From positions 1 through 27,973 of IMG/VR virus record IMGVR_UViG_3300028571_001490: 27,973 nucleotides of DNA; one strand, written 5' to 3'. Shown piece after piece: positions 118 to 20,524 of the stretch; the first letter of the stretch is position 1, and every line of letters starts with the position of its first letter. The notes under the pieces were generated by a model. The model was not told where the DNA came from. It saw only the letters and a list, made by a program, of their open reading frames with translations, and ran no database searches. The translations under genes were made by a program, and so were the position numbers. Source of the DNA: a virus.

Positions 118-3100
118 TTAACATTGAGTTGATGATAATCCGATTACAACACCAGATCCAGTTAAGTCCCAGTTAGCTCCTTGGTGGAATACATATATTT
201 CACTAACCACGTTCTGTAATGTAAAATCTGTGTATAATATACATCCAGGGCTAATTGTCTGACAATTTGAATATAATGTTTTCGGATTGATAATAGCGTC
301 GGAACAAGCGTCAGAAACACTTATATCACTAACCCCACTATTACCAAAGGTACCTGTATTAGCGGTTGCACAAGTTTCACAATTGGTATAGGTCTCACTC
401 GGAACACCTGTGAAATAGTTACCACCAAAATTGATTGGAGTAACTTTTGGAGATGGAATGTAAGATGTGTTGAACTGACCAACATAATACCAACAATTTC
501 CGTCATTGTCTTTGAATACCTCATTGACCGCAATTGTGAAAGATACTGGTTGTGTTTGAATAACTTGTTGTATCGTTCCTCTTCCTGCTCCAATACGAAT
601 ACATGACTGATAAACATATAAGAAGTTAGGTGTTGCCGATGGTGATGCCGTTATGGACGGTGTTGGTGTATTTGTTGCCGTTGGAGTTCTAGTTTGAGTT
701 GGCGTAGGTGGAGGTGTGGTTCCATTTGTCGCAGTTTGTGATGGTGTTGCAGTTTGTGTTGCAGTAACGCTAGGTGTGATACCTGCCGTCGCCGATGGTG
801 TCGGTGTTGGAGTTGATGTTACCGTTGCTGTCGGTGTTGGAACATTGCTACAGTATTCACAAGAAGAATAAATTTGAACAATATCCCCAAGATTACTATT
901 AGATGACAAGTTGTTATCATCTCTCGTATAAACCACACAACGATTAGTTCCATTAACCTGTACAAACATTGTCATACCAACTATCACAGGAGTTCCGCTA
1001 AATGATAATGAATCATTAGTGTAGAATTCTTCTCCTGTGTCGCAATCAGTCAATACTTTAACTGAGACACAACTGAATGTTTGGTCTAACATTTCAAATG
1101 TTCTATTACCTCCAATTGAAACTGTTCTTGTAAGTGTTACCGAAGGAGTCAAAGTTACCGTTGGAGTAGTTGAGGTATACCCACTCAAACTAAAATTAAT
1201 TCCAACTCCCGAACAGAAATTACCTGAAGGTGTTGGTGTTGGTGTAACACCAATAGAATCAATTATAAAATTAACATCATCACAAGCAACACTCGGAGTT
1301 GGAGTTGGAACTGGTTCCCAATCACAATCAAAGTAAGCGTTGAAATCAAAAGTAGAACAATCAATCGGAGTTGGCGTCGGAGTAGGACATATACCTCCCT
1401 CAAAATCATTAGCAGAAATGTCAGGACACTGTGAATTACATGGATTAGAACCTCTCAATATACAAGCACCCCCCAAAGAAGTACTCAAACACCAATATTG
1501 AGTTGTATGATAAATAACCGCAGAAGTTAATCCATCTCCAGAATAATAAATTCTTGAGTTGTATGTTCCTGCCGATTCATAATTTCCATTGTATCCTGAG
1601 AATGAAGGTAAAGTTGTGTAAAAACAAAAATCTGTGAACGCACAAGCCGATGGAGATGCTGAAACTGTTGGTGTTTGGGTCGGTGTAGATTGTGGAGTAT
1701 TAGTCGGTGTTGGAGTAGGTACACACAACAAACAATTATCATAATCAGGATCTCCCATGTAAGGACCACCTGGTCCAGAAAATTCAACAAAACTATAACA
1801 CTCACCATTGTAAAGATAGGCCGCCCCAACAAATGCGGTGTCCTCATTAACATTAGCATAAAATACACTACCGTTAGAACACTTATATAATAATGCCGCA
1901 GTTATATTTGTTCTCGGACACAGAGAATCTGCACAGTTTGGAACTTGTGTAAATGTAACCCCTAAGGAGTCATATATAGTACCTGTAGTAAATCCACTTA
2001 CAATTGTTGCACATCCTTCAAATTCCGAACTACCAGTAATGTAATATGTATTCCCAATTGTAACAGGTATACTTGGTCCTCCGAATCTGAATATGTTAGA
2101 TCCATTTGTACAATCTTGGAACTGTACAATAACACTATTCGTCGCACTCGGAGTTTGAGTTTGTGTTGGAGTTTGTGTTGAAGTATTTGTAGGAGTTTGT
2201 GTTTGTGTTGAAGTATTTGTAGGAGTTTGTGTTTGCGTAGGTGTTTGTGTTGGGGTCTCGGATGGAGTACTTGTGTTCGTCGATGTTTGTGTTGGAGTAG
2301 CTGTTTGTGTTGGAGTTTGAGTCGGAGTTTCCGTAGTAGTAGGGGTATTGGTAGGCGTTTCTGTAGGAGTACTGGTTTGTGTTTCAGTTGGAGTAGCTGT
2401 CAACGTAGTCGTTGTCGTAGGAGTTTGTGTAGGAGTCTCAGTAGGAGTCTGTGTTGGTGTATTGGTATTTGTTGCAGTTTGCGTTGGAGTTTCAGTTGGA
2501 GTCGGCGTAGAAGTTTCGGTAGCAGTTGGAGTCAATCCAACTGTTGCGGTTGTAGTGGGGGTACTTGTTGGTGTTTCTGTATTTGTCGGCGTTGGAGTTT
2601 CGGTTGGAGTTTGAGTTGGCGTTTCGGTGGGAGTTGAAGTCGGAGTTTCAGTTGGAGTTGGAGTTAATACTTCAATACAACCTCCACAAAAAGATTCATC
2701 GACTTGAATTATAGTCAGACCTGGAGTTTCGGCGTAACTACCAAGTATTGCACAAAAATATCCAGTTCCTCCAGGGAATGGGACGTTGTTTATAGATTGA
2801 GAAACGTGATTACAATCTAAATAAGTTATTGTATTGATACCGGTAGGTTCTCCATCATTGGTGTATTGATAACAAACACATGAATCAATAGGAGTAGGTG
2901 ATGGTGTGGGAGTTGGGGTTGGAGTTTCTACAGAACAAGGCTGACACCCTCCAGCAAAACTATCGTTTTGATATGCAATCGGAGCGGCAAATGGTCGCCA
3001 AAACTCCCTAATTTGTCCACCTGACGCAAGATAAAATTCTTGCCCCACAGCAACTTGAGATTCAAAGGGTGTGATATCACAATTTAGAATTTCATCAAGG

Positions 3101-3231
3101 TCACAAAACGCCGGGTTTGGATTACCAGGATCTCCATCAAATGATAAATTATATGATGTCGCGGTGCATGTCAGTGCCTTTAGGTATAGATCCGTTCCTC
3201 CACTATAAAAATTTACCGATATTATTCCCAT
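118..3231 (-). CDS. 1037-residue Pro-Thr-rich modular surface protein (putative fibre/adhesin)
   Basis: Cys-paired modules alternate with Pro/Thr linkers. Residues 1-100 form a module ending GGCQPC. A short PT linker follows, then a module at 116-188 ending FCGGC, a long TPTE/TPTQ linker at 190-365, and modules at about 366-503 (two CxxC-type pairs), 530-616, 625-680, 705-796 and 870-955. The C-terminal Cys-rich domain is at about 960-1037. Modules repeat the pattern C-x-G ... G-x-C-Y/W ... C-x-x-C. No signal peptide or membrane segment is visible, which fits a virion protein rather than a secreted host protein. Start ATG at 3231 has no Shine-Dalgarno; the upstream bases are ACGAACAATACTTAC. 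Pro-Thr-linked Cys modules are seen in large proteins of environmental tailed phages. A tail or capsid decoration fibre is the best guess. The Thr-dense linkers would be good O-glycosylation substrates, but that is inference. It reads away from the S74 gene at 3647. Confidence 0.8.
625..843 (-). repeat. Second Pro-Thr linker repeat
   Basis: Encodes residues 797-869 of the same protein, a more degenerate Pro/Thr/Ser/Ala tract of TATP, TPTP and SATP units joining two Cys modules. It uses the same GTTGGTGTTGGAGTT-type DNA words as the long linker and so could recombine with it, which would delete the modules between them. Confidence 0.7.
2137..2664 (-). repeat. Imperfect Pro-Thr codon repeat (long linker)
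   Basis: This stretch encodes residues 190-365 of the 1037-residue protein, built from [12 protein letters not shown] and TPTS units. At the DNA level (plus strand) it is a degenerate array of GGAGTTTGTGTTGGAGT-like words with 6-, 12- and 18-base periods. Two adjacent near-identical copies of GTTGAAGTATTTGTAGGAGT are visible at about 2187-2225. All periods are multiples of three, so slippage or recombination would change linker length without breaking the frame. Confidence 0.85.
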
Positions 3232-3511: not shown

Positions 3512-3646
3512 TAATAGATTTTTTATATTATCTTTCATATATTTTTCCAATATCAAAGACCCATTGTTGGATTTACACCAGTCATACACATAAATTTTAA
3601 TTTTATTATATTTATGTAAAACAAATCAATCTAAAAAAATAGAATT

Positions 3647-5581
3647 ATGAGAGCAGTTATTATAGGCACTGATTTTATGAAAGATACCGATGGTACTTTC
3701 AAAGCATTAGAAACAAATACAAACATTCAATTAGATACCCAATGGTCTCTTAACTTTGATTCCGAATTATTTGAGAACTTTGTACTTTCAAATAATTTTA
3801 CAGAAGTTGTATTGATTTCGAATGAACATAGTACATCCTCTGAAACATCTCACTCAATTAATTATGAAATTAATGAACTTCGTAGTACAAATGTAAATCG
3901 TACTGAGAACTCATTACCAACAATACCTTTCAATTTTACTTTTGATCAATATTTGAAATCATTTTTATCTGAAAGTAATATAGAATTAATAACTATAAGC
4001 ACAGATGCCACTTCTACTACAATTCCTTTTGTAGAAGATGCAGAAGATAAACTAATTATACGATTATCATTTGATACAACTGCATTGATAGATGATAACT
4101 ACACAAGAGATAATTGGGGATTTTTAAGATTAATGTATGATGCTGATAACAATTCTATTCCAAAATGTTATATTAATGATACTGAATTCGGTATAGATAG
4201 TATTGGAGATACATTAAGAGATAATGGTAATCATCCTAATTATTGTATTAAAAAAAGAGTAACACCATCGGATAATAAAATTTATCCAAAATTATTTAAA
4301 CTTTCTACTTTAGAACAATTGAATGATTTAAAGTCTAATTTGGAAGTTGATGAATATATCCAAGAATATATTTTTAACACTGATGATTTATTTGATGGTA
4401 GATTAAATACATATAGAAGTATAGATTTATTATATGGCTCAAATTTGGATATTATTAACTTACAAGTTATAGAAAAAACAAAAATTTTACCACTTCTATC
4501 TTCAGCAGATTTTGATGATACTAACCAAGTCCAACATTGGGATCGAATGAGATATCTTCAAAAATTTTATACATTTGCTTCCGAAGTTGCCATCGAATTG
4601 AGTGCTACCGATAACACTAAAATATTATTACCAAACGGTACTACTAAATTGGCAACAAGTTTAAAATTAGGGGATGAGGTTAAAACTCTAAATATTCCAA
4701 ATATACTTGATGATGATCTTATGTCAAATTTAGATGAATGGTCTACCTCATACGATTCGGTAATAAATGATTATCAATTATCTTCGACATTTCTAGCCCA
4801 TGAGGCGATAACTTCTGATTATTATGGAATTTTAGTAACCTTTAATACTGAATCGAATACAATATTTAGTGATGTAGGACACGCTAAAATAATGGTGAAA
4901 GATGGAGAAAACGTTAAATTCGAAAAGTTCGGTCTTCTGAAAATTGGAGACGAAGTTTTCATATATGACACGAATATAAGTCAATTAATTACTACTAAAA
5001 TAACTGAGGTAAATTTTAGATTTGATAAATTTACTGCTTATACTTTAGATTTTGAAGAAATAGATTGGTTCATAACTATGGAAGAAACTGAAAATCAAAG
5101 TAGGTATGGATTAATTACTCATAATTACACTTACGATTGTAGGTATTGGAGTGTTACATATAATAGTGGCCCTGGATATTGTGTTACTTGGTTCACTTGC
5201 ACAGGTGGTGGGCAGCTTACAACTTGTCCTTGGAATTATAACCTTCAGGGTCCATGTTCAAGAACTCTATTTGTCGGTGGAAAATCTCCTGCATCGTTTA
5301 CCTACTCACCTGGTAGTGCGAGCCTTAACATTGGGGCCTTCTGTAATAGCGAAAAACCATCAGATATTAACTATAAAGAAAATCTAACTTTAATTGGTGT
5401 ATCTGAACTCGGATTAAATGTTTATCAATATAATTACAAAAACGAAGAAGGTTTATATCAAGGAGTTATAGCTCAAGAATTGATTGGAACCACTTTTGAA
5501 AACGCGTTATCATTAAATATAGATGGTTTATATGAAGTAGATTATAATAAAATAGATGTGGAATTTAAAAAAATAAATTAA
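3647..5581 (+). CDS. Fibre-like protein: ATP-grasp-like start, Hint-like middle, S74 self-cleaving chaperone end
   Basis: The last 73 residues are a Peptidase_S74 intramolecular chaperone: S572-D573-x-x-x-K577-E-N, then LGLNVYQYNY and GVIAQEL. The Ser/Lys spacing of five matches the endosialidase-type self-cleavage dyad, so cleavage before S572 after trimer folding is expected. Just before it, residues about 495-568 are rich in Gly, Cys and aromatics (CRYWSVTYNSGPGYC), like a receptor-binding tip. Residues about 317-479 resemble a Hint/intein fold: S319-A-T-D-N-T-K-I, LKLGDEV, H412, a second LKIGDEV and YTLDFEEIDWFI. The C-terminal His-Asn is missing, so splicing is unlikely. Residues 1-310 contain ATP-grasp-like strings (DGTFKALETNTN at 15-26; IKKR at 201-204; YIQEYI at 237-242). 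S74 ends are typical of phage tail fibres and spikes. It is the first gene of the plus-strand operon. The overall architecture is unusual. Confidence 0.8.
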   Translation: MRAVIIGTDFMKDTDGTFKALETNTNIQLDTQWSLNFDSELFENFVLSNNFTEVVLISNEHSTSSETSHSINYEINELRSTNVNRTENSLPTIPFNFTFDQYLKSFLSESNIELITISTDATSTTIPFVEDAEDKLIIRLSFDTTALIDDNYTRDNWGFLRLMYDADNNSIPKCYINDTEFGIDSIGDTLRDNGNHPNYCIKKRVTPSDNKIYPKLFKLSTLEQLNDLKSNLEVDEYIQEYIFNTDDLFDGRLNTYRSIDLLYGSNLDIINLQVIEKTKILPLLSSADFDDTNQVQHWDRMRYLQKFYTFASEVAIELSATDNTKILLPNGTTKLATSLKLGDEVKTLNIPNILDDDLMSNLDEWSTSYDSVINDYQLSSTFLAHEAITSDYYGILVTFNTESNTIFSDVGHAKIMVKDGENVKFEKFGLLKIGDEVFIYDTNISQLITTKITEVNFRFDKFTAYTLDFEEIDWFITMEETENQSRYGLITHNYTYDCRYWSVTYNSGPGYCVTWFTCTGGGQLTTCPWNYNLQGPCSRTLFVGGKSPASFTYSPGSASLNIGAFCNSEKPSDINYKENLTLIGVSELGLNVYQYNYKNEEGLYQGVIAQELIGTTFENALSLNIDGLYEVDYNKIDVEFKKIN

Positions 5582-5582
5582 T

Positions 5583-5732
5583 ATGGCAACCGAAATTAAC
5601 AAAAATGTAACATACACAAATTTTACTGATTTGTTTAAAAGACAGAGAATTAATACCAGTTCATCGGTTAAAACTGCTCTTTTACAAAAAATTAATACAT
5701 TTGTAGATGCGGTAAAGGAAAAACATTTATAA
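5583..5732 (+). CDS. 49-residue protein, unknown
   Basis: Starts two bases after the S74 gene stop (TAATATG) and ends 18 bases before the zinc-ribbon gene. The product begins MATEINKNVTYTNFTDLFKR and continues with a Ser/Thr stretch and a C-terminal helix ending AVKEKHL. It has no Cys, signal peptide or membrane segment. Tight spacing inside the operon supports it as a real gene. A small partner of the preceding fibre protein is possible from position alone, but no family is recognised. Confidence 0.65.
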   Translation: MATEINKNVTYTNFTDLFKRQRINTSSSVKTALLQKINTFVDAVKEKHL

Positions 5733-5750
5733 TAATTAATAATTAGTTAT

Positions 5751-6032
5751 ATGTTTGATAAAGTAAGGGAAATAGGTGAATCTTGGATTATATCTAATAA
5801 CCCATCTGAAGCTCAATTAAAACTAGCTGAAGCACGATTGGATATATGTACAGGTTGTGATAAGATGGTAAAAGGTACTCTTGTAGAGTTTAAATGTTCG
5901 GAGTGCGGGTGTCCTATTCATAAAAAGATATTTTCACCTAAATTCGATGCATGTCCTTTACATAAATGGTTGGATGTTGAAAATACAAATTTATATCACG
6001 ATACACAAAAAAAATCAAAAAGTTTTTTATAA
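5751..6032 (+). CDS. Small zinc-ribbon protein (CxxC/CxxCxC/C)
   Basis: A 93-residue protein with C33-x-x-C36, C49-x-x-C52-x-C54 and C68-P-L-H-K-W, a likely four-ligand zinc ribbon. An N-terminal helix (residues 1-32) and a polar Lys/Ser tail flank it. Small proteins with a C-terminal CPLxKW-type motif behind two CxxC knuckles occur in many marine phages, usually without a known role. The stop is followed directly by the ATG of the next gene (TAAATG), so the two are probably translationally coupled. DNA binding, RNA binding or protein contact are all possible; the sequence does not decide. Confidence 0.75.
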   Translation: MFDKVREIGESWIISNNPSEAQLKLAEARLDICTGCDKMVKGTLVEFKCSECGCPIHKKIFSPKFDACPLHKWLDVENTNLYHDTQKKSKSFL

Positions 6033-6767
6033 ATGTCTTTATTGATAAATGATGAATTGATTTGGGTTAGTATCCCAAAAAACGCAAGTTATTCAATTGA
6101 GGAATCATTAATTAATTCTAATCTTAAAATAAATCATTCTTCTACTTTCTATTCAATAAAAAAAATGAATGAATCGATTGGTAGTGATATAATACCACAT
6201 CCGCATGTTGAAATGGGGAAACTAAAATTAGAATTTGGTGATAAGGAAACATTTTGTATAAAAAGAGAAATTGGTGATAGATTTAAATCTTCTATTGAAT
6301 TTATTTTTTCTACAATTATAAATTATAATAAACATACTCCAATAATTCCTATTTCAGAAATCGATAATAATTTTATATATTCATTTTTTAATTTAGAAAA
6401 TATCAATAATTTATTTGACACATCATTACAAAAACACAATTCATGGTTTCAAATTTACAATAAATTGATTAAAGAAGATTTAAAGTTTAGTGATGTTTAT
6501 TTTGATACATATCAAAATTTTTGTACTTTACTTCCACAAAATTTTTTTACTCTTTCTAAGAAATGCACCTATGAATTTGATATTTCAAATTTAGATGAAT
6601 ACGCTTTATTTATGAAAGACAAATTTAATGTCAATATAAAAGTAAAAAAAATAAATAGAAGCACAAATAAAAATGAATCTAATATAGAAAATAATACTGA
6701 ATTTAAAAATTGGGTTTTTGATAATTTTGAAAAAAGATTTGAAGTTAATAATAAAAAAATTATATGA
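6033..6767 (+). CDS. Sulfotransferase-like protein
   Basis: A 244-residue protein whose start (WVSIPKNASYSI, residues 11-22) matches the 5'-phosphosulfate loop of sulfotransferases (typically IPKTGSTSI). The 3'-phosphate region appears as IKREIGDRFKSSIEF, the equivalent of VRDPYERFLSSY. The normal Asp-Pro of that motif is replaced, so activity is uncertain. It is a distant relative of the pair at 10596 and 11345, with the same length and motif order. If active it would transfer sulfate from PAPS to a sugar or protein; no PAPS-making genes are visible here. The coding is extremely AT-rich with runs of A and T. Confidence is high for the gene and moderate for the family. Confidence 0.65.
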   Translation: MSLLINDELIWVSIPKNASYSIEESLINSNLKINHSSTFYSIKKMNESIGSDIIPHPHVEMGKLKLEFGDKETFCIKREIGDRFKSSIEFIFSTIINYNKHTPIIPISEIDNNFIYSFFNLENINNLFDTSLQKHNSWFQIYNKLIKEDLKFSDVYFDTYQNFCTLLPQNFFTLSKKCTYEFDISNLDEYALFMKDKFNVNIKVKKINRSTNKNESNIENNTEFKNWVFDNFEKRFEVNNKKII

Positions 6768-6783
6768 TAGAATTTTTCAATAA

Positions 6784-7167
6784 ATGAAAATTTTTAATAA
6801 AATTAAATTAGAAATCAGATATATAGATGATGTAAAGGGGTTTGGTGTATTTACATTGGAAAAAATTAATATAGGTGATATAGTTGAAACTTGTTATTTT
6901 TTACCAATTTATAATTCTAATATCAACCCATTATTAGATTATTTATTTCAAATTGATGAACATACAACCAAAAGAATCTTTCCCTTGGGATATGGTGCTA
7001 TTTATAATCATTCAGATTCTCCTAATATCAATTGGAAAGTAAAAGATGATAAATTCATTGAATTTTATTCATTAAAGGAAATTGAATCAGGTGATGAATT
7101 ATGTCATGATTATGGACCTAAATACTGGCAAACATATTGGGAAATTAGAAAAAATAAAATAATTTAG
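6784..7167 (+). CDS. SET-domain protein (putative lysine methyltransferase)
   Basis: A compact 127-residue SET domain. N-terminal strand KGFGVFTLEKINIGDIVE (18-35), the NHSxxPN motif at N75-H76-S77 ... P80-N81 and the GDELCHDYG motif at 103-111 with catalytic-type Tyr110 are all present. The family transfers a methyl group from S-adenosylmethionine to lysine side chains. The usual post-SET zinc Cys cluster is absent, as in many small bacterial and viral SET proteins. It lies between a sulfotransferase-like gene and a truncated duplicate, in a run of modification enzymes, so a virion or host protein target is plausible. The target is unknown. Confidence 0.85.
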   Translation: MKIFNKIKLEIRYIDDVKGFGVFTLEKINIGDIVETCYFLPIYNSNINPLLDYLFQIDEHTTKRIFPLGYGAIYNHSDSPNINWKVKDDKFIEFYSLKEIESGDELCHDYGPKYWQTYWEIRKNKII

Positions 7168-7179
7168 TATTAAAATTAG

Positions 7180-7427
7180 TTATTATTTTTAATGAAATTT
7201 TACATTCATCATTTTCATTCAATTTCTCTTTTTTATAAATTGTTTCATAAAACAACTAATAGAAGATATGAACTAACTAATAACATTGGTTCTATTTTTT
7301 GTAAATATGAAGAGTGTGATTTAGAATTAGTATTCAATCCAATTATAAATGATAATACCGATGGAACTCATATATTAGATTTTCTAACTTGTTTAGAACA
7401 GATAAATGAAGATGATAAGTTAAAAAA
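7180..7427 (+). repeat. Direct repeat, copy 1 (5' part of the gene at 8095)
   Basis: About 250 bases, including 12 leader bases TTATTATTTTTA and the first 78 codons, are repeated at 8082-8330. I count 14 base differences over the 78 codons and a one-base length difference just before the ATG. Similarity ends sharply near codon 79. Confidence 0.9.
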
Positions 7428-7440
7428 TAGGTTATACTAA
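7192..7440 (+). CDS. Truncated duplicate of the 426-residue gene downstream
   Basis: An 82-residue product identical to residues 1-78 of the protein at 8095 except H9 versus Y and K38 versus R, then a short new tail (RLY) and a stop. Of 14 base differences from the long copy, 12 are silent, so both copies were under selection for protein sequence for some time after they separated. The break does not coincide with a domain boundary that I can recognise. It may be a recombination scar left when the 2OG oxygenase gene at 7448 was inserted between two copies, a still-useful N-terminal fragment, or a pseudogene. Leader and start are intact, so it is probably translated. Confidence 0.6.
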   Translation: MKFYIHHFHSISLFYKLFHKTTNRRYELTNNIGSIFCKYEECDLELVFNPIINDNTDGTHILDFLTCLEQINEDDKLKNRLY

Positions 7441-7447
7441 ATATTTT

Positions 7448-8062
7448 ATGAATTATATAGAACAATTAAAAGAAACTCCTTTACAAATTGAAAATTTTTT
7501 ATCAATTGAAAGTGCAAATAAAGTTTATACCTTAATAGATAATTACAAAAATTGGGAAGTTAGTTCAATTTTCAAACAAACTTATGAATTTGAAAAAAGT
7601 AAATTTGAACAAGGTTATTTTTCATATTGGTATAACAATATTAGAGATAAAGAATTTATACATAATTTATTAAAAATACTAAATTTTGATTTTGAAATAA
7701 GTAGATTACTTAATGATAATTTTTTTGTTCCACAAGATATTTTTGTTTCAAAATACACAAAAGGACATTTTCTATCTCCACATGATGATAAAACACCAGA
7801 TAGGAAGTATGCATTTGTCTATAATTTAACTAAAGATGCTGATGAGAGTAAAGGTGGTTGTTTAAATTTTATTGATGATGATAATAATACCACTCATAAA
7901 TTACTACCAAAATTTAATAGTTTAAACATTTTTGATGTAATTAATATTAAAAATAGACACTTTGTTAGTGAAGTAACGGATATAGAATACAAACGATATG
8001 CAATATCAGGATGGTTAACTGAAACCGATACTAAAATGAAAAGTAAAAATAGTTTGATATAA
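7448..8062 (+). CDS. 2-oxoglutarate/Fe(II) oxygenase, prolyl 4-hydroxylase-like
   Basis: A 204-residue protein with the double-stranded beta-helix signature. H112-x-D114 (FLSPHDDKTPDRKYAFVYNL) and distal H171 (RHFVSEVT) are the iron ligands. R183 (YKRYAISGWL) is the 2-oxoglutarate salt-bridge residue. GGCLNF (136-141) is the usual hairpin between them. The family hydroxylates proline or other side chains, or small molecules, using O2 and 2-oxoglutarate. Its start follows the truncated duplicate by seven bases. It is one of three oxygenases in this operon. The substrate cannot be told from sequence; a phage or host protein is the usual suggestion for this type. Confidence 0.88.
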   Translation: MNYIEQLKETPLQIENFLSIESANKVYTLIDNYKNWEVSSIFKQTYEFEKSKFEQGYFSYWYNNIRDKEFIHNLLKILNFDFEISRLLNDNFFVPQDIFVSKYTKGHFLSPHDDKTPDRKYAFVYNLTKDADESKGGCLNFIDDDNNTTHKLLPKFNSLNIFDVINIKNRHFVSEVTDIEYKRYAISGWLTETDTKMKSKNSLI

Positions 8063-8081
8063 AAAACAAACATCGAAACGA

Positions 8082-8330
8082 TTATTATTTTTAAATGAAA
8101 TTTTATATCCATCATTTTTATTCTATTTCTCTTTTTTATAAGTTGTTTCACAAAACAACTAATAGAAGATATGAACTAACTAATAACATCGGTTCTATTT
8201 TTTGTAGATACGAAGAGTGTGATTTAGAATTAGTATTCAATCCTATTATAAATGATAATACCGATGGGACTCATATATTAGATTTTCTAACTTGTTTAGA
8301 ACAAATAAATGAGGATGATAAATTAAAAAA
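8082..8330 (+). repeat. Direct repeat, copy 2
   Basis: The full-length counterpart of the repeat at 7180-7427. It includes the leader TTATTATTTTTAA and the first 78 codons of the 426-residue gene. The two copies are about 900 bases apart and in direct orientation; recombination between them would delete the oxygenase gene at 7448. Confidence 0.9.
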
Positions 8331-9375
8331 CATTGATTGTGTAAATAGAAAAGAAGGAGATACGTCTCATCGTGGAAAATGGGGTGCTGAATTTGGTATT
8401 AATGATATTCCAATAATGAAATGGATATCCAATACTTTGGAAAATAAAAATAATTGGTTTATTTTTTTATTACGAACTGAAAAATCTATCATTAAATATG
8501 ATGGTATTAACTATCCAAATGTGATGGATTTGGAGGTTCAAATAGATAGATTAAAAAATCATTTTATCATATCAGATAATGTAATTTTTAATGAGTTTGT
8601 AAAAACCAAATACCCAAATCACTTTTTTTGTTTAACTAATACAATACACCAATGGAATGAACTCTTATCAATTCGTTGGTATTATGAATTTAAAAATATA
8701 TTTAGTAAATTAAACCAACCTTATGATTTGTGTTTTTCTATGAGATACCATAAGAGAAACAGAACTAATATCATAAATGGATTAGCAAAACTAAATGATG
8801 ATAGAATATACCTTTCAAGAGTAGATAATTGTATTAATAAAGAATTTGATATTTTCTCTAAACAATTAGAAAAAAATATCAACTACAATATTAATAAAGG
8901 AGATGATTTTGATGATATATCTTGGATTGAAAATATAGAACACTATTTAGACTATTTGATGAGAATTCTTCCTACGTCTAAAATGCATATATTGTCTGAA
9001 ACTTGGGATTGGAAAGAAGGTGATTTTACATCAAACTATTTATCTGAAAAAACGTATGGATTCTTACTAGCTAATATTCCTTTTATATCAACACATCAAT
9101 ATCCATTAGATGTGGTAGCCGAAATATTGGATACGCCTCCGCATCCATTTTATAATCAAATAAAAAAAGCAAATGGTAATCCTGAAAAATTTGTTTTATT
9201 CGTGGAAGAATTTATGAAAAATTATGAAATTAATAGACAAATGTGTATTAATTGGAGTAATAATACACATAATAAATTAATGAGTTTTATTAACTGTGAA
9301 AATTCATTTTTAAAAAAAATAATTCATAATAACTTTATTATAGAAAAAAATACTATATACAAAAACATTATATAA
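8095..9375 (+). CDS. 426-residue SEKT-family protein (glycosyltransferase-like)
   Basis: Its C-terminal half carries S317-E318-K319-T320-Y321, followed by a hydrophobic strand and a Pro (FLLANIPFISTHQYP). The same block occurs in the proteins at 13132 and 18145 of this window. Before it lies a block with a basic patch (DLCFSMRYHKRNRTNIINGL), also shared in outline. A conserved Glu-Lys followed by an aromatic/Pro strand near the C-terminus resembles the donor-sugar site of GT-B enzymes such as fucosyltransferases, so a glycosyltransferase is the best guess, held loosely. It has no membrane segment or signal peptide. Its N-terminal 78 residues are duplicated upstream. The next gene starts one base after its stop. 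Confidence 0.6.
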   Translation: MKFYIHHFYSISLFYKLFHKTTNRRYELTNNIGSIFCRYEECDLELVFNPIINDNTDGTHILDFLTCLEQINEDDKLKNIDCVNRKEGDTSHRGKWGAEFGINDIPIMKWISNTLENKNNWFIFLLRTEKSIIKYDGINYPNVMDLEVQIDRLKNHFIISDNVIFNEFVKTKYPNHFFCLTNTIHQWNELLSIRWYYEFKNIFSKLNQPYDLCFSMRYHKRNRTNIINGLAKLNDDRIYLSRVDNCINKEFDIFSKQLEKNINYNINKGDDFDDISWIENIEHYLDYLMRILPTSKMHILSETWDWKEGDFTSNYLSEKTYGFLLANIPFISTHQYPLDVVAEILDTPPHPFYNQIKKANGNPEKFVLFVEEFMKNYEINRQMCINWSNNTHNKLMSFINCENSFLKKIIHNNFIIEKNTIYKNII

Positions 9376-9376
9376 T

Positions 9377-10027
9377 ATGGAAAAACTATATTTTGATGAT
9401 ACAACATTTATATGGAAAACAAAACTTAATTTATTTGATAATAAAAATGAAATAATTAAACAAGCAAAACATGTTATAAAATCCCACATCGGTAATATCA
9501 CCGACGGTTTTGGGTATCTAACAACGGAAAATGATAAAGTGTTAGATATCGCAGCTTGTGGAAACCAACCCATATTAGATAAAATAATTGAATTAAGTAC
9601 CAATTATTGTAAGGAATTATATATTGAAAGTAATGATTATAACAAATTAAATGTAGAATCTTGGATTAACATAGTTAGATCAGAAAATCCAATACAACCG
9701 ACATATGTAGATAGAGACTTAGGAGGAGAGTTGAGGTATCATGTGCATACTAAACTTAATAAAATTACTAAATCATTTTTTCCACATTATACATACGTTT
9801 ATTATGTTCAAATGCCCGATGTAATGAATGGAGAGGATGGTGTTTTATACTTTAAATCAAAGAATGATATCACATACTGGGTAAAACCAGAAGAAGATGA
9901 TTTGATTATAATGACGGGAGATATGCCACACGTACCAAATAACTCACCCAACTCAACATTAGATAGAATAGTTATTGCAGGTAATGTTGGTTTTGAATTT
10001 ATTAAAAACTTTAAAACTATAATATAA
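9377..10027 (+). CDS. Putative 2OG-Fe(II) oxygenase fold protein
   Basis: A 216-residue protein whose second half looks like the jelly-roll of 2OG oxygenases. YHVHTKLNK (121-129) leads into VYYVQMPD, then GEDGVLYFKSK, VKPEEDDLIIMTGDMPHVPNNS with H185, and LDRIVIAGNVGF with R197. The order H ... G-x-L-x-F ... H-x-V ... R-x-x-x-x-x-N is that of the family. The first metal motif is H122-x-H124 rather than a clean HxD, so the iron site or even activity is unsure. The N-terminal 100 residues are not recognised. The stop TAA overlaps the next ATG by one base (TAATG), so it is coupled to the clear oxygenase that follows. Confidence 0.6.
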   Translation: MEKLYFDDTTFIWKTKLNLFDNKNEIIKQAKHVIKSHIGNITDGFGYLTTENDKVLDIAACGNQPILDKIIELSTNYCKELYIESNDYNKLNVESWINIVRSENPIQPTYVDRDLGGELRYHVHTKLNKITKSFFPHYTYVYYVQMPDVMNGEDGVLYFKSKNDITYWVKPEEDDLIIMTGDMPHVPNNSPNSTLDRIVIAGNVGFEFIKNFKTII

Positions 10028-10596
10028 TGTTTACCAAATACATTGAAAATTTTTTAACACAGGAAGAGTGCGAACAGATAATTCTTTTAGGGGAGTCTGT
10101 GGGCCTAATCCAAATGAAATCATCACTAATTGTAAATGGTAAACTAATTAAAAAGAATGTAAGTTATACTGGAAATAAAAGAATGGGTTGTTATTTTTTA
10201 GGTGATTTATTGGAAAATGAACTATTAAAAAATATTACAAATAAGATTGTCGAATTATCTAATAACCTAAATCCATTTAAAGGTTTATATTATACAAAAG
10301 TACCGAGTTATTCATTTAATAGATATGGAGAAGGGGATTTTTTAGAGTGGCATTCGGATAATCATGAAATTTTAAATGGTGCAACAATCACCTTCATTAT
10401 TCAACTTAACGATGAATATGAAGGTGGTCATGTTAAATATATTACAAATAGAACCAATCACACCACACCCAAAAAAACAGGAAGTGTATTAATATTCGAT
10501 TCAAATATAGTTCATTCAGTTGACGAGATAATAAAAGGAACTAGATATTCATTGAATGTATGGCCACGTAAGATAATTAAACAATCTATATTATAA
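10027..10596 (+). CDS. 2-oxoglutarate/Fe(II) oxygenase (PKHD/P4H type)
   Basis: A 189-residue protein with complete catalytic residues: H109-S-D111 in DFLEWHSDNHE, H163 in SNIVHSVDE and R173 in GTRYSLNVWP. GGHVKY (133-138) lies between them. The family hydroxylates protein or small-molecule substrates with O2, Fe(II) and 2-oxoglutarate. Start and stop are each coupled to neighbours through TAATG one-base overlaps, so it is co-translated with the oxygenase-like gene before it and the sulfotransferase-like gene after it. The N-terminal helix (TQEECEQIILLGES) is the usual lead-in of prolyl-hydroxylase-like enzymes. Confidence 0.88.
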   Translation: MFTKYIENFLTQEECEQIILLGESVGLIQMKSSLIVNGKLIKKNVSYTGNKRMGCYFLGDLLENELLKNITNKIVELSNNLNPFKGLYYTKVPSYSFNRYGEGDFLEWHSDNHEILNGATITFIIQLNDEYEGGHVKYITNRTNHTTPKKTGSVLIFDSNIVHSVDEIIKGTRYSLNVWPRKIIKQSIL

Positions 10597-11336
10597 TGTT
10601 AGTAGAAAATAAATTTATTTATGTATCATTACCACGTTGTGCCTCTTCTTCCTTTATGGCATCGTGTATAAACCAAAATCTAAAGATACAACATTTGAAA
10701 AAAGATTGGGATATTGAAACCCAAAATAAAAAATATAATGTAGATATAACTAAAGTAGATTACACTAATTTTGAAATTTTTCCACTTTATCATGGACATG
10801 AGCCAATAAATGAGTTACGAGATAAATTTGGTAATTCATATGATGTTATTTCTGTTAAACGGGATAAATATGACAGGTTTATTTCATTATGGGGACACTT
10901 TTTAAATTGGTCGTATGTTACAAATGATACTGATACATTTGGAAAATGTTTAAATCTAACTATGAATGATATTTTTTTTTATAAAACCAATGATTTGCAA
11001 ACATCCGATTCTATTAAAGAACAAGTTGAAATTTTTGTAAAGACTTATAAATTAGATAACCTCACAAAGGGCGCAAAGGGTATACTTCATGTTCTTTTAA
11101 CTCCATATTCGAGATGGCATAATCATGACCCAAATATAATATGGTTTGATTTTAATGAATTATACAAATTAGAAGAGTGGGTATCTAAAAAATTAGATAT
11201 TAATTTTAAATTAATTAAGTTGAATAGTAGTAAACATTTTCAACCCAACTTACTACTTAATGATGAATTTAAAGAAAAATATAATTCTATTTATTTACCT
11301 TATGATGAAATAAAAAATGTAAAAACATTTTTTTAA
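10596..11336 (+). CDS. Sulfotransferase-like protein, tandem copy A
   Basis: A 246-residue protein. YVSLPRCASSSF (residues 9-20) is the phosphosulfate-binding loop, and SVKRDKYDRFISLW matches the 3'-phosphate motif (R-x-x-Y-x-R-x-x-S-x-Y). A conserved block WHNHDPNIIWFDFNELYKLEEW lies near the C-terminus. The first 47 bases are identical to the gene at 11345, and 86 bases at 11115-11200 differ from it by one base, while the middle is much more divergent. A role in sulfating a glycan or protein is likely if PAPS comes from the host. The acceptor is unknown. No membrane anchor is visible, so it would act in the host cytoplasm. Confidence 0.7.
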   Translation: MLVENKFIYVSLPRCASSSFMASCINQNLKIQHLKKDWDIETQNKKYNVDITKVDYTNFEIFPLYHGHEPINELRDKFGNSYDVISVKRDKYDRFISLWGHFLNWSYVTNDTDTFGKCLNLTMNDIFFYKTNDLQTSDSIKEQVEIFVKTYKLDNLTKGAKGILHVLLTPYSRWHNHDPNIIWFDFNELYKLEEWVSKKLDINFKLIKLNSSKHFQPNLLLNDEFKEKYNSIYLPYDEIKNVKTFF

Positions 11337-11344
11337 ATATAATA

Positions 11345-12082
11345 ATGTTAGTAGAAAATAAATTTATTTATGTATCATTACCACGTTGTGCGTCAACTGC
11401 GTTTATGGCATCGTGTGTAAAACAAAATTTAGATATTAAACATTATAATAATGATTACAATATGGATAATCAAATTATTAATAGTCGGTATGATGATGTG
11501 AGTCAAATATATTTTCAAGACTTTGAAAAAGAGTTTGTTCATAACCATGAATCGATACGTGTTTTAAAAGAAAAATTTGGATATTATTATGATATCATAT
11601 CTGTTAGAAGAAATAAATATGAAAGATTTATATCCTTATGGAAGCACCTATTAAAAAAGTTTGATGGATATAATAATTTAGATGCAGTTAATAAATTATC
11701 AAATCTTACTATTGACGAATTATTATTCTATAAAACAAATGATTTACAATCAGTAGAAAGTGTAGAAGAAGTTATTGAAATTTTTATAAAAACCCATAAG
11801 TTAACGGTTCATGAGGTTGAAAAACAAATGTTAAGAATTTTGATATCTCCCTATTCAAAATGGCATAATCATGACCCTAATATAATATGGTTTGATTTTA
11901 ATGAATTATACAAATTAGAAGAGTGGGTATCTAAAAAATTAGATATGGATTTTAAGTTAATTCATTTAAATAGTAGTAATCACTTTGATTCAAAATTAGA
12001 ACTTAATGATAAATTTAGAGAAAAATATGATTCAATTTATTTACCTTACGATGAAGTAAAAAGTACAAAAACACTATTCTGA
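11345..12082 (+). CDS. Sulfotransferase-like protein, tandem copy B
   Basis: A 245-residue paralogue of the preceding gene, eight bases after its stop. It has the same loop (SLPRCASTAF), the 3'-phosphate motif SVRRNKYERFISLW and the HNHDPNIIWFDFNELYKLEEW block. The pair probably arose by tandem duplication. Their nearly identical ends but diverged middles suggest different acceptors with the cofactor-binding and C-terminal parts kept alike, or partial gene conversion. The stop TGA overlaps the next start (TGATG). Confidence 0.7.
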   Translation: MLVENKFIYVSLPRCASTAFMASCVKQNLDIKHYNNDYNMDNQIINSRYDDVSQIYFQDFEKEFVHNHESIRVLKEKFGYYYDIISVRRNKYERFISLWKHLLKKFDGYNNLDAVNKLSNLTIDELLFYKTNDLQSVESVEEVIEIFIKTHKLTVHEVEKQMLRILISPYSKWHNHDPNIIWFDFNELYKLEEWVSKKLDMDFKLIHLNSSNHFDSKLELNDKFREKYDSIYLPYDEVKSTKTLF

Positions 12083-12525
12083 TGAAAAACTACATTTTAC
12101 ATACAGATACTTTTATAAAAGAAGAATTAACTATACATCATATAGTAGATATCCAAAATTATATTTCCGATATTCAATCCCTAATCGATTCCTTTAATTT
12201 AGAATATAAATGGGATGGAATGTTTGATATAGATGAGTGTAAAAATAGAATCAATTCAGGTCAATATTTGTTTTTATTAAAACTAAACGATATCCCGATT
12301 GGATATGTTTGGTTTAAAGAAATTACGTCAGATACTTGTTTTGGATATAATCTATATGTTACTAAACAAACACCAAGACCAAAATACGCACCAACTTGGT
12401 TTTATAGAAAAGTTAGTGGTATTATACTAGAAAAATATAATTCAATTCATGTTGAAATAGAAGATTGGAATGATGTTGTGTTTGAATTAGTTGAAAGTAT
12501 TGGTTATCAAATGCAATATGAATAA
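12082..12525 (+). CDS. GNAT-like acyltransferase
   Basis: A 147-residue protein with the outline of the GNAT fold. A beta-hairpin LFLLKLNDIPIGYVWFKE is followed by a strand (FGYNLYV) and, near the end, a helix and WNDVVFELVESIGYQMQYE, which matches the C-terminal N-x-x-A-x-x-x-Y-x-x-x-GF motif of the family. The acetyl-CoA loop (normally Q/R-x-x-G-x-G/A) is not clear: TPRPKYAPTWFYRKVSG sits where it should be. An acetyl or other acyl transferase acting on a sugar or protein is a reasonable guess, held at moderate strength. It overlaps the previous gene by one base and the next by eight. Confidence 0.5.
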   Translation: MKNYILHTDTFIKEELTIHHIVDIQNYISDIQSLIDSFNLEYKWDGMFDIDECKNRINSGQYLFLLKLNDIPIGYVWFKEITSDTCFGYNLYVTKQTPRPKYAPTWFYRKVSGIILEKYNSIHVEIEDWNDVVFELVESIGYQMQYE

Positions 12526-13135
12526 GTTATGGACATTTGGAGATAGTAATACTGCAGGACATGGATGTCATTCGAGTGATGAGTATTATGAAAAGTATTA
12601 CAAATCAGGAGATGGGATTTGGCCAGTATGGTTAAGTGATAAATTAAATGTTGAACTAAAAAATCTTGGAAAGAATGGAAGTTCAAATGATACAATCATA
12701 GATACTATAATTGATAAGTGGGAAAAAATAAATAGTGGTGATTATGTGTTTATTGGAATGACACACCCCCATCGATTTGATGTACCAATTAATAATCATT
12801 TTGAATCCATAGTTCACGATTTTTCAAAAAGTAAAACCGAAAATGGATTAACTAATGATGAATTTGAAACCATCATAAATTTCCAGTATTACTTTGCAGA
12901 TAACATTCTATATAAGAATAGACAAATAAAAAGATTTGAATGGATTAAAAAACTCCTCATACAAAAGGGATGTGGAAAAGTAATTTTATGGAATGTTCAG
13001 ACTGATTTAAAAAGTCTTGAAACTATAAAAGATGCAACTAAAGGACAAATAGTAGATTATCATCTTTCATTCAAATCACATAAATCATTATCTGAAATTT
13101 TTTATAAGAAGTATTTTGAACCCGAATTGATATGA
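12518..13135 (+). CDS. SGNH/GDSL-family hydrolase
   Basis: A 205-residue protein starting MNKLWTFGDSNTAGHGC. GDS at 8-10 is block I with the catalytic Ser. GKNGSSNDTIID gives the Gly/Asn of blocks II-III, and DYHLSFKSHKSLSEIFYKKYF near the end supplies the Asp-x-His pair (compare DIHWS at the end of the protein at 23237). I chose ATG 12518 over an upstream TTG at 12491, because the longer form adds only nine residues deep inside the previous gene and the GDS block normally lies within about 10-15 residues of the start. The family removes or transfers acyl groups on glycans or lipids. It follows a GNAT-like gene, so acyl addition and removal may act on the same product. Confidence 0.75.
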   Translation: MNKLWTFGDSNTAGHGCHSSDEYYEKYYKSGDGIWPVWLSDKLNVELKNLGKNGSSNDTIIDTIIDKWEKINSGDYVFIGMTHPHRFDVPINNHFESIVHDFSKSKTENGLTNDEFETIINFQYYFADNILYKNRQIKRFEWIKKLLIQKGCGKVILWNVQTDLKSLETIKDATKGQIVDYHLSFKSHKSLSEIFYKKYFEPELI

Positions 13136-14283
13136 GTGATTTAAAAAACTTATTAATAAATGTTGGATATGATGATTTATCTCATCTAAATTTACACAAT
13201 TATAATATCGAACCTGATTGGATTATTGATGGTAAAACAAACATTTCAAATTTATTAGATAATACTTTAGGTAATTTCAAAGAAAATACTATTCATTTTT
13301 TTATTAAAAATAATTTAAATTTTATATATCCTATACTACTATTTGATGATAAGTTATTTGACAATCATAAAACTATTAAATTAGATGATAAATTAATAAC
13401 ATCAATTAAACTCAAAAAATGTAAAGTTGTTTTTGCTTATTTACTTGAAGGATATTTCAATACATCATGTGTGAATTGGATAAACGATTTATGTCAAAAA
13501 TATAATTTTTCTAAAGATGATGTTATTGTCATTACCTCAAACCTAATCCAATTTTTAAATAATAATTTTACTATAATCAATTACAATTATTTTGGTAACC
13601 ATATAAACTTTTTACCAGTATCCAAATTAGATTCCATAAAAGTAAAATTATATCAAACCGAATATGAGAAATTTTTAAATACTAATTTTGAATTCCATTT
13701 TTTGTGTTTTAATGGTATAGCTAGAGAAAATAGATTATTAATGTTTAATGAATTAACTACTAATTCAAAATTTAAAAATAAATCTATTACAACATTACGA
13801 GGTGTTGATAAAAACTATTATTATGATGTTCCGAGTTGGGATAATCAAAAAATAGGTGGAGGTGCACGACTAAATGTTGATGCACATTTGAAAAGTTTTT
13901 TAAATATAGTCACTGAAACTCTATATGATAGTGATTCAATTTTCATATCTGAAAAAACATATAAACCCATCTACCTATGTCAACCTTTTATTGTATTTGG
14001 AAATCCTTTTACTTTAAATAAACTACATGAGTTGGGTTATAAAACATTTGATAAGTGGTGGGATGAGAGTTATGATTCCGAACTTGACTTAAAAATCAGA
14101 TTTAATAAAATAGTAAAGGTGATGGAAACTATATCTGAATTAAATTTGGATGAATTGAAAGAATTAAAGAATGAAATGAGAGATGTAGTAGTACACAACT
14201 ACTTAAATTTTTTTAAAGTTAATGAACTTAAAGATTTGTTTAAATTACTTCAATGTGATTTTAACAAAAAAACATTAATTTAA
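13132..14283 (+). CDS. 383-residue SEKT-family protein (glycosyltransferase-like)
   Basis: Contains the same C-terminal block as the proteins at 8095 and 18145: S273-E274-K275-T276-Y277, then KPIYLCQPFIVFGNP, a helix, GYKTFDKWWDESYD and a helical end with RFNKIVKVMETIS. An earlier block (FHFLCFNGIARENRLLMFNEL) matches CYNRNLTMHRLGIL in the protein at 18145. This is a recurrent phage family with no proven role that I know of. The conserved Glu-Lys plus Pro-Phe strand is reminiscent of the nucleotide-sugar site of GT-B glycosyltransferases. It overlaps the SGNH gene by four bases (ATGA) and is the last gene of the plus operon, ending 20 bases before the shared hairpin. Confidence 0.6.
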   Translation: MSDLKNLLINVGYDDLSHLNLHNYNIEPDWIIDGKTNISNLLDNTLGNFKENTIHFFIKNNLNFIYPILLFDDKLFDNHKTIKLDDKLITSIKLKKCKVVFAYLLEGYFNTSCVNWINDLCQKYNFSKDDVIVITSNLIQFLNNNFTIINYNYFGNHINFLPVSKLDSIKVKLYQTEYEKFLNTNFEFHFLCFNGIARENRLLMFNELTTNSKFKNKSITTLRGVDKNYYYDVPSWDNQKIGGGARLNVDAHLKSFLNIVTETLYDSDSIFISEKTYKPIYLCQPFIVFGNPFTLNKLHELGYKTFDKWWDESYDSELDLKIRFNKIVKVMETISELNLDELKELKNEMRDVVVHNYLNFFKVNELKDLFKLLQCDFNKKTLI

Positions 14284-16481: not shown

Positions 16482-18145
16482 AGTATTTTGTGTATTATAT
16501 AATTATCGATGACTAGTAAATCCAAATCAGTATCCTTGAAGGTTTCTACCGCGTCATTTGGAGTTAATACCATTGTCTTATCTTTTACATTAAAGGATGT
16601 ATTCAATATAATCGGAAATCCACTTAATTTTTCAAATTCCAATAATAAGTCATAAATCATGGTGTCCTTATATACCGTTTGTATTCTTGAGGTTCCATCA
16701 ACGTGAACGACTGCCGACAACTTATCAGCGTATTGTTCTTTAACTTTTACGATTTGATTCATATATGGTACATCATCGGCCACATAAAAAAACTCATCCT
16801 GTTTCTCTTTAATAACCATGGGAGCAAAAGGTCTAAACCCTTCTCTTTTTTTAATTAATCGATTTATTCTCGACTTCATATCTGCAAGTGTTGGGTCTGC
16901 TAAGATAGACCTGTTACCAAGTGCTCTCGCACCAAATTCAATTTTGTCTTGATACCAACCAATTACCTTACCTTCATTGATTTTTTCCGCGATAGATCGT
17001 ATTAATTTAATATTATCATCAAATTTTATAAAATTTAAATTTTTAAAATTATTAAGATAATCTTCAATATTATACTCAGGCCCTAAAAATGGGTTTTTTG
17101 TTACTCTCTTATTTAACTTTTTATTTTTCACAAGATAATGGATACAAGCTCCGACACATGAACCAGCATCTGACGGAGCAACTGGTATCCAAATTTTTTC
17201 AAAATCAGAATTAGGAACTATCTTTCCATTCGCAGTACCATTATACGCGGAACCTCCTCCTAAACAAAGATTTGTACTACCAAGATTCTTCAAACTTTTA
17301 ATAATATCGAACAAAACTTCTTCATATCTAAGTTGAACCGCAGCCGCGAGATTTTGATGAACTGGTTTGATTCCCTCTTCCGTGAGTCTTGGTAGAATAC
17401 CCAAAAACTCAGACAACTTTTCATCAAACATTAATCTATTCGATCTATCCCAACAAAAAATATTCATATCACAAAACAATTCACCCTTTTCAAACTTGAT
17501 TAAGGACCTTAGTTTTCCTATGTACTGTGATGGGTTTCCATAAGACGCTAATCCCATCAACTTATATTCCCCTTCATTAGGTTTAAACCCTAAAAAAGAA
17601 GTCATCGTAGAATAATAAAGTCCTAGTGAGTGAGGATATTTTCCTAAAGAATGATATTCAATTCCATCATCATCCGCTAACCCATAGGATAATGTATCAA
17701 TTTCACCAACACCATCAATGGATAAAGAAATTGCCCTTTCAAAATCGGAAGTGAAAAAAGAATAATACTGATGAGCCAAATGGTGTTCGGAGTAAAATAC
17801 TTTTCCCTTAAATGGTCTCAAATGTTTATTTACATCTGAGATATTTTTCAAGATTTTAACTAAAGATTTTAAAGAATATTTCGGTGATGTAAAAAAGTTT
17901 TTCTTGATGTTACTCAGTACTCTTTTTAGTTTCAGATTGAGGTCTTCATAATAACAAACCATTTCAATATCATCATAGGTTATACTATAATGACTAAAGA
18001 TGTATTCAATTGTATTAATTGGAAAAGAACTATCGTGTTTAATTCCCGTAAATTTTTCCTCTTCACAAGCAAACACCAACTCCCCGTCTTTGAATAGACA
18101 GGCGGATGAATCGTGATAAAACGATGAAATTCCGAGTATGTACAT
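16478..18145 (-). CDS. O-carbamoyltransferase, NodU/CmcH family
   Basis: A 555-residue protein covering both family domains. The N-terminal ASKHA-like part begins MYILGISSFYHDSSACLF with the EEEKFTGIKHD motif and has the metal-binding H121-H122-L-A-H125. The C-terminal part has GWYQDKIEFGARALGNRSIL and KKREGFRPFAPMVI, the carbamoyl-AMP transfer motifs. The family moves a carbamoyl group from carbamoyl phosphate, through carbamoyl-AMP, to a sugar hydroxyl. Length is normal for the family (about 550-600). Start ATG 18145 overlaps the stop of the upstream gene (TAATG). In this cluster it most likely carbamoylates the deoxysugar or its glycan. Confidence 0.92.
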   Translation of the reverse strand: MYILGISSFYHDSSACLFKDGELVFACEEEKFTGIKHDSSFPINTIEYIFSHYSITYDDIEMVCYYEDLNLKLKRVLSNIKKNFFTSPKYSLKSLVKILKNISDVNKHLRPFKGKVFYSEHHLAHQYYSFFTSDFERAISLSIDGVGEIDTLSYGLADDDGIEYHSLGKYPHSLGLYYSTMTSFLGFKPNEGEYKLMGLASYGNPSQYIGKLRSLIKFEKGELFCDMNIFCWDRSNRLMFDEKLSEFLGILPRLTEEGIKPVHQNLAAAVQLRYEEVLFDIIKSLKNLGSTNLCLGGGSAYNGTANGKIVPNSDFEKIWIPVAPSDAGSCVGACIHYLVKNKKLNKRVTKNPFLGPEYNIEDYLNNFKNLNFIKFDDNIKLIRSIAEKINEGKVIGWYQDKIEFGARALGNRSILADPTLADMKSRINRLIKKREGFRPFAPMVIKEKQDEFFYVADDVPYMNQIVKVKEQYADKLSAVVHVDGTSRIQTVYKDTMIYDLLLEFEKLSGFPIILNTSFNVKDKTMVLTPNDAVETFKDTDLDLLVIDNYIIHKIL

Positions 18146-19881: not shown

Positions 19882-19891
19882 ATTATTTAAT

Positions 19892-20524
19892 TTAAAACAC
19901 AACCCATTTACCAGTTCCATAGTGCGGGTATTTTGATTTATATTGATACCAAATTACATCGTTTGGTATATCTTTTTTTATGTTATTCCATGTTGCCTCT
20001 GTTGGGGTATAGGTTGAAACTCCATTATCTTCCACAACAAAATAAAGTGGTAAATCAAAGTTTCTTGCATACTTATGTACTTCATAAAATATCCCGCTTT
20101 CAAAACTCATGTCTCCAACAAATACCCATACCTTTTCACCCCCACCACTTTGTTTAATACTCATCGCCACTCCTAATGCGATTGATAGTGTTCCTCCAAC
20201 AATTGCCGAAGAGTAAAACTTATCTTTTGGGTTACAAATTGTAATTGATTTGCCTTTTAAAATTTGGTCTTCTAACCAAATGGGACAAATACCTTTTACT
20301 AAGGCGTGATAATGTGATCTCCACGTAGAAAAAACCCAATCAGATGGATATATTCTTTTAGAGATTTCTATCAGCTGGTCTTCATTTCCGTTTGATAAAT
20401 GTACTGGTCCTCTGATTTTACCTCCTTCCCAATGACTAACAATTAAATCCTCAAAATTTATTAAATCTTGTGAAGTTAATTTTTGTTCCCTTACTATTGG
20501 ATAATTCTCTAAATTTTTAATCAT
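19892..20524 (-). CDS. TPP-binding E1-alpha-like subunit, short form
   Basis: A 210-residue protein matching the thiamine-diphosphate half of E1 dehydrogenases. HLSNGNEDQ is at 42-50. FSTWRSHYHALVKG (65-78) corresponds to the E1-alpha RxHxxxLAxG segment. SSAIVGGTLSIALGVAM is followed by the TPP/Mg motif G137-D138 ... D166-N167. It is much shorter than normal E1-alpha (about 320-380) and ends soon after the TPP motif. It overlaps the RmlC-like gene by four bases (ATGA) and is followed by the E1-beta-like fusion. No E2/E3 genes are visible, so oxidative decarboxylation is unlikely; transfer of a two-carbon unit to a keto-sugar is a better fit to the cluster (inference). Confidence 0.8.
   Translation of the reverse strand: MIKNLENYPIVREQKLTSQDLINFEDLIVSHWEGGKIRGPVHLSNGNEDQLIEISKRIYPSDWVFSTWRSHYHALVKGICPIWLEDQILKGKSITICNPKDKFYSSAIVGGTLSIALGVAMSIKQSGGGEKVWVFVGDMSFESGIFYEVHKYARNFDLPLYFVVEDNGVSTYTPTEATWNNIKKDIPNDVIWYQYKSKYPHYGTGKWVVF

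Follow-up and report, generated by a model that had tools for sequence, protein, structure and literature searches.

Homology-facilitated illegitimate recombination has been described in bacteria as an exchange with homology at one end and none at the other (PMC5361080), and the accessible parts of the reports place it in naturally competent bacteria and in E. coli conjugation (PMC3240628; PMC5361080). For gene additions in T4-related phages, an illegitimate exchange or the invasion of a 3'-end has been proposed in the available part of that account (PMC2993671). On truncated copies at gained genes, the portions of the literature accessible to us contained nothing useful. Here we analyse an entire IMG/VR virus record (27,973 bases, GC 29.7%, without N), referred to as the window, in which a gene start is present on both sides of a putative oxygenase gene. 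We propose, with a probability of about 0.85, that this repeat was left as a scar when two related phages recombined in a one-sided (homology-facilitated illegitimate) manner. These phages are probably T4-like, as the contig of the relative L004 has baseplate wedge, SbcC-like and primase matches.

An initial annotation had described a direct repeat around a 2OG oxygenase gene at 7448, and both the repeat and the oxygenase were confirmed. The repeat (7186-7427 and 8089-8330) comprises 242 nt with 94% identity, without gaps and with a start-to-start spacing of 903, which is far beyond chance. Allowing a single 1-base gap in the leader extends it to 7180-7427 and 8082-8330 (249 columns, 94.0%). 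Copy 1 (7180-7429, plus strand) is colinear with the near-identical phage L003 and holds the native leader and codons 1-79 of a glycosyltransferase-like gene; copy 2 (8082-8330, plus strand) holds the leader and gene start of the presumed donor. A recount over codons 1-78 returned the figures given before, 14 base differences with 12 silent changes and two replacements (H9Y and K38R), and codon 79 contributes a silent 15th difference. The 82-aa ORF that starts in copy 1 (7192-7440, plus strand) consists of the 79 native codons followed by RLY, which is probably the end of a donor gene.

The middle ORF (7448-8062, plus strand) is assigned by Pfam to the 2OG-Fe(II) oxygenases, since its predicted 204-aa product matches PF13661 with 67.9 bits (1.1e-18) and PF13640 with 57.7 bits, the cut-off being 27 for each. 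The protein contains H112-D-D114 (HxD), H171 and R183, and we take an HxD...H iron triad with a distal basic residue to be the motif of this superfamily. The full-length gene on its right (8095-9375, plus strand) encodes a 426-aa protein that had no Pfam or PHROG match at E 0.1 or better, and the gene had no match in the named phages searched. The AF2 model of this protein reached a mean pLDDT of 72.9 and a pTM of 0.77. In Foldseek its best match was WaaG (8b5s, E 1.8e-4) at a modest TM of 0.37-0.42, with UDP-GlcNAc 2-epimerases matching nearly as well, which points to a GT-B-like glycosyltransferase or a related fold.

The first IMG/VR scan for the 426-aa gene yielded 22 loci, near-identical contigs included, and a wider scan yielded 54 loci including all of the first 22 contigs. 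The gene is single copy in 22 of 22 whole contigs of the first scan, and the oxygenase of the window is absent from all 22; weak matches of ~30% were seen in two of them only and fall on a different oxygenase. The N-terminus of the gene is present in 52 of the 54 loci (missing in L185 and L208), and in L207 the gene is present twice, each time in a frame of >400 codons. The sole copy at L172:3418, on the same contig as L020, is interrupted at codon 86 by an in-frame TAA while the remaining gene is intact, which is either a sequencing error or a recent loss.

The slot before the 426-aa gene is variable among the relatives. The gene directly upstream encodes a Zn-ribbon protein in 12 of the 22, a SET protein in four and other kinds of oxygenase in five; in the remaining one, L010, the contig end cuts the slot and a partial oxygenase match is left. 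The left border of the slot in the window is a Zn-ribbon-like 93-aa gene (5751-6032, plus strand; phrog_13558, 2.5e-9), and the native left neighbour of the repeat is a SET-domain gene (6784-7167, plus strand; PF00856, 6.2e-12) that is 99% identical in L003. In L003 this SET gene runs straight into the 426-aa gene, so that L003 provides the empty site. The 60 bases upstream of its gene start are identical (60/60) to those upstream of copy 1, and the distance from the SET gene to the gene start is the same as in the window from the SET gene to copy 1.

Comparison to L003 also separates the two copies. The window is 97.1% identical to L003 over 3572-7429, where the match stops at 7429, and 93.9% identical from 8082 on. 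Differences amount to 23/1830 in the left flank (5600-7429), 11/241 in copy 2 and 39/551 in the unique gene part (8331-8881), then drop to 12/600 at 8882-9481, a value that does not differ from that of the left flank (p 0.23), and climb again to 81/1108 at 9482-10590. Silent divergence is 0.030 for the SET gene, 0.074 for copy 1, 0.353 for copy 2 and 0.294 for codons 80-200, the single-copy gene part outside the repeat; copy 2 differs in its divergence from the left genes with p 2e-5. Since copy 2 is as diverged as codons 80-200, it belongs with the DNA on its right. Since copy 1 and the left DNA are L003-like while copy 2 and the next ~500 bases are diverged, the copies represent the gene versions of two parents. 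This agrees with the earlier suggestion that the repeat came together with the oxygenase from a diverged relative, given the empty site in L003 and the divergence that copy 2 shares with the gene. The other suggestion, that the short copy was full-length until recently, holds insofar as copy 1 is the native gene start, once full-length, and was cut at codon 79.

A fit with two change points places the diverged tract between the joint and a putative switch back to L003-like sequence at ~8857 (dlnL 26.3, compared to a maximum of 11.0 in 100 shuffles on a coarser grid). The contrast between the gene halves differs from that against L004 (p 0.006) and L014 (p 0.005; p 0.066 for L005), therefore the switch is not merely a conserved gene end. 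The renewed divergence at 9482-10590 indicates a mosaic structure of the region, and the right switch may have arisen separately. In a tree built from the 237 shared bases, copy 1 goes with L003 or with copy 2 at nearly the same support (37/32), hence the case rests on the steps in rate and not on tree shape.

We propose that co-infecting relatives exchanged DNA. In the recipient the 426-aa gene would have come after the SET gene, an order still seen in L003, and in the donor some upstream gene would have preceded the oxygenase and a diverged 426-aa gene of its own. At the left, an A-rich tract behind codon 79 of the recipient gene would have been linked, with no real homology, to donor DNA immediately before the oxygenase. 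At the right, the exchange would have been anchored by homology within the 426-aa gene, where the recipient type resumes, and the cut-off start of the recipient gene would remain as the 82-aa ORF. Since such a product duplicates sequence and does not delete it, one complete copy of every gene is kept, and the product survives. Similarity on the left side to six loci ends at 7427-7429, as expected for a one-sided joint at 7429/7430, and the context of copy 2 has no more in common with it there than a short A-rich run. The A6 tract adjoining this joint is a candidate for microhomology in an AT-rich window that has 63 runs of A6 or longer. A homologous right joint is consistent with a switch inside the gene, although more weakly, as the region is mosaic further right. 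As to the presumed donor genome, no relative of the oxygenase was found in IMG/VR or GTDB by peptide patterns, and none close in the 111 pieces. A Campbell-type insertion of a circle by single crossover was rejected, because 8331-8881 is diverged as compared to the left flank.

A second scar of the same design is present in L003 (6502-7292; also in L039, L075 and L155), and it is independent of that in the window. Between an oxygenase gene of L003 and the next gene lies a 41-aa ORF that includes 35 codons of the start of this next gene, followed by a 215-aa oxygenase (PF13759, 55.4 bits) and then the full gene. For this insert the window in turn represents the empty site. The donor-type order is found in L004, where this oxygenase (78% identical) immediately precedes a paralog of the next gene of L003, and the joint in L003 passes, within an A-run, into the end of the upstream gene of L004. 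The 35-codon fragment differs from the full copy by 10.5 replacement and 1.5 silent changes and has lost the PRCAS motif. Among the 111 pieces, some of which are redundant (the L003 contig is represented at least three times), only the window and this contig carry scars, and a DNA scan of the window and 37 pieces found partial gene starts beside full copies only at the same two scars.

The title of the initial annotation had the truncated copy kept by purifying selection, and the 82-aa product could accordingly act, e.g., as a regulator or decoy of the full enzyme. Start, leader and frame are intact over 79 codons, only two of the 15 differences between the copies change residues, and the N-terminal ~80 residues are modelled as ordered (block pLDDT 73-90). 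However, the 12:2 excess of silent changes follows from the divergence between two full-length lineages. It is copy 2 that differs from L003 over codons 1-79 by 12 silent changes and no replacement, while copy 1 differs by three silent changes and two replacements (Fisher p 0.07 for the two ratios). One of these two replacements changes residue 9, His in copy 1, where 21 of 22 relatives have Tyr; position 38 is freely variable. The title is therefore not supported: the small counts for copy 1 give no sign of a special constraint on the fragment, and they comprise too few changes to prove relaxation. In addition, no relative in the 111 pieces or the 54 loci carries a stand-alone or truncated copy beside a full 426-aa gene, the sister fragment in L003 has accumulated mostly replacements, and the 82-aa ORF does not carry the C-terminal tail of the enzyme island described below. 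We consider a functional fragment improbable, and the 82-aa ORF is probably a leftover of the scar without function.

The repeat could also have arisen in place, by tandem duplication of the window's own gene start (or of the whole gene, later cut) with insertion of the oxygenase in between. The short tree does not reject copy 1 and copy 2 as sisters (AU test, p 0.387), both copies share position 193 against L003, and tandem duplication is known in the window from the paralogs at 10596 and 11345. Yet this requires that silent changes accumulated in copy 2 several times faster than in the DNA on its left, and that the single-copy part of the gene past the repeat shared this rate by coincidence, which makes such an origin very unlikely. 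Just as unlikely is a fusion of two strain variants in one contig by the assembly, although the copies do resemble variants of a single gene from two strains. The window is free of N, no exact match across 7429/7430 was found among the known sequences searched, and the same design recurs independently in the contig of L003; moreover, the longest exact stretch common to both copies is 38 nt, which offers little for an overlap-based assembly jump. Least credible is a functional switch, in which recombination between the copies excises 903 bases with the oxygenase and restores an intact gene, so that phages flip between both states. The geometry, with copies in the same frame, would permit it, but no second member with the insert of the window was seen among the relatives scanned. 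L003 as an excision product was rejected, since it is copy-1-like through codon 79 and the rest of its gene differs from that of the window. Passive loss of the oxygenase by ordinary recombination is likely. One-sided recombination between two phages thus remains our preferred reading.

A C-terminal tail of the general form [K/N]-[S/T]-hydrophobic-hydrophobic-COOH is common to unrelated proteins of the enzyme island (5751-14283 of the window, plus strand, and L038-L208). Proteins of the window end in KSFL (the Zn-ribbon-like protein), KKII, NKII, NSLI, KNII, KTII, QSIL, KTFF, KTLF and KTLI, of which KKII, NKII and KNII fit the loose pattern only. The strict pattern, [KNQ][ST][ILFM][ILFV]-COOH, was counted in 1,429 distinct ORFs of the 111 pieces and occurs in 209 of them; internal positions predict 3.7, and shuffling of the C-terminal columns gave 40.5 on average (maximum 56). 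When ORFs were clustered after trimming of the last six residues, 32 of 394 families had the strict tail in at least one member, and in 23 of these at least half of the members also had the loose tail. The Ser/Thr codons of the tail come from the AGY, TCN and ACN boxes, therefore the peptide rather than the DNA appears to be conserved. The loose tail peaks at the Zn-ribbon gene (39/48), is found in 51-70% at the next five genes and is zero in the few genes seen eight to twelve places upstream (33 ORFs). Families with the strict or loose tail include several 2OG oxygenase types, glycosyltransferases, SET proteins, an O-methyltransferase and a tryptophan-halogenase (PF04820, 2.3e-91). By labels from sequence reading and a weak Pfam match, the strict tail is rare in acetyltransferase-like (1/32) and hydrolase-like (0/43) neighbours. 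In stretches of three named phages, two of which have the same enzyme types, it was counted in 1/41, 0/39 and 0/46. The gained 204-aa oxygenase carries the tail (NSLI); RLY at the end of the 82-aa ORF was rejected as a tail of this type, since it lies outside both patterns.

Runs of A6 or longer are present at 113 of 209 tail-coding ends compared to 389 of 4777 internal windows, and they may offer joints for cassette gain. The tailoring enzymes of the island comprise 2OG oxygenases, sulfotransferase-like proteins, glycosyltransferases, a halogenase, SET proteins, O-methyltransferases and a Zn-ribbon protein. Tentatively, and at somewhat less than even odds, we suggest that the shared tail is a docking or sorting tag that directs each of these unrelated but interchangeable enzymes, once gained, into one phage-encoded complex, which perhaps decorates the virion, and that its A-rich coding ends serve as cassette joints. 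The accessible parts of the literature contained no report on a shared C-terminal tail in phage enzymes and nothing useful on enzymes that might decorate virions.

Several other genes were noted in and around the island. The window encodes, at 118-3231 (minus strand), a 1037-aa protein in which long stretches are PT-rich (207 Thr and 103 Pro), which is a possible substrate for the adjoining oxygenases and glycosyltransferases. The tandem paralogs at 10596-11336 and 11345-12082 (plus strand) are sulfotransferase-like, with PF00685 below the cut-off, and most of the paralogs and relatives compared are nearly identical over the first ~45 bases. The halogenase gene lies in the island of a relative (L057:8753-9985), and most of its own relatives in 85 phage records belong to cyanophages. 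A 591-aa protein (18145-19920, minus strand) has, as its sole assigned part, a weak N-terminal match to the transketolase family PF02779 (25.4 bits, cut-off 27).

The scar event itself is ordinary, and the shared tail may matter more: should it serve as a docking tag, it would mark the set of phage cargo enzymes that work jointly. Nevertheless, the locus is a clean example of phage gene addition, with an empty site and a second independent case. It suggests that lopsided exchanges which duplicate a gene start survive, and that their decaying fragments would be annotated as small genes. Likewise, a low ratio of replacement to silent changes, when a fragment is compared with its full copy, is not in itself a sign that the fragment is used.

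With homology-facilitated illegitimate recombination, as far as the accessible parts of the bacterial reports describe it, the locus shares one anchored and one non-homologous end and the orphan gene pieces left behind; it differs in that two phage genomes are involved and the event is known from its product alone. With the mosaic gene gain of T4-related phages it shares an addition in a variable segment of a T4-like genome, again in the available part of that account (PMC2993671), whereas here the left joint, the empty site and the parallel scar can be placed with single-base precision or close to it. Finally, in the merodiploids of S. pneumoniae transformation, recombination with a partly repeated fragment likewise duplicates sequence, but those duplications, in the portion of the report available, are ~100-900 kb and arise by unequal crossing-over (PMC3784515), while here a gene start of 0.25 kb is duplicated together with the addition of a foreign gene.
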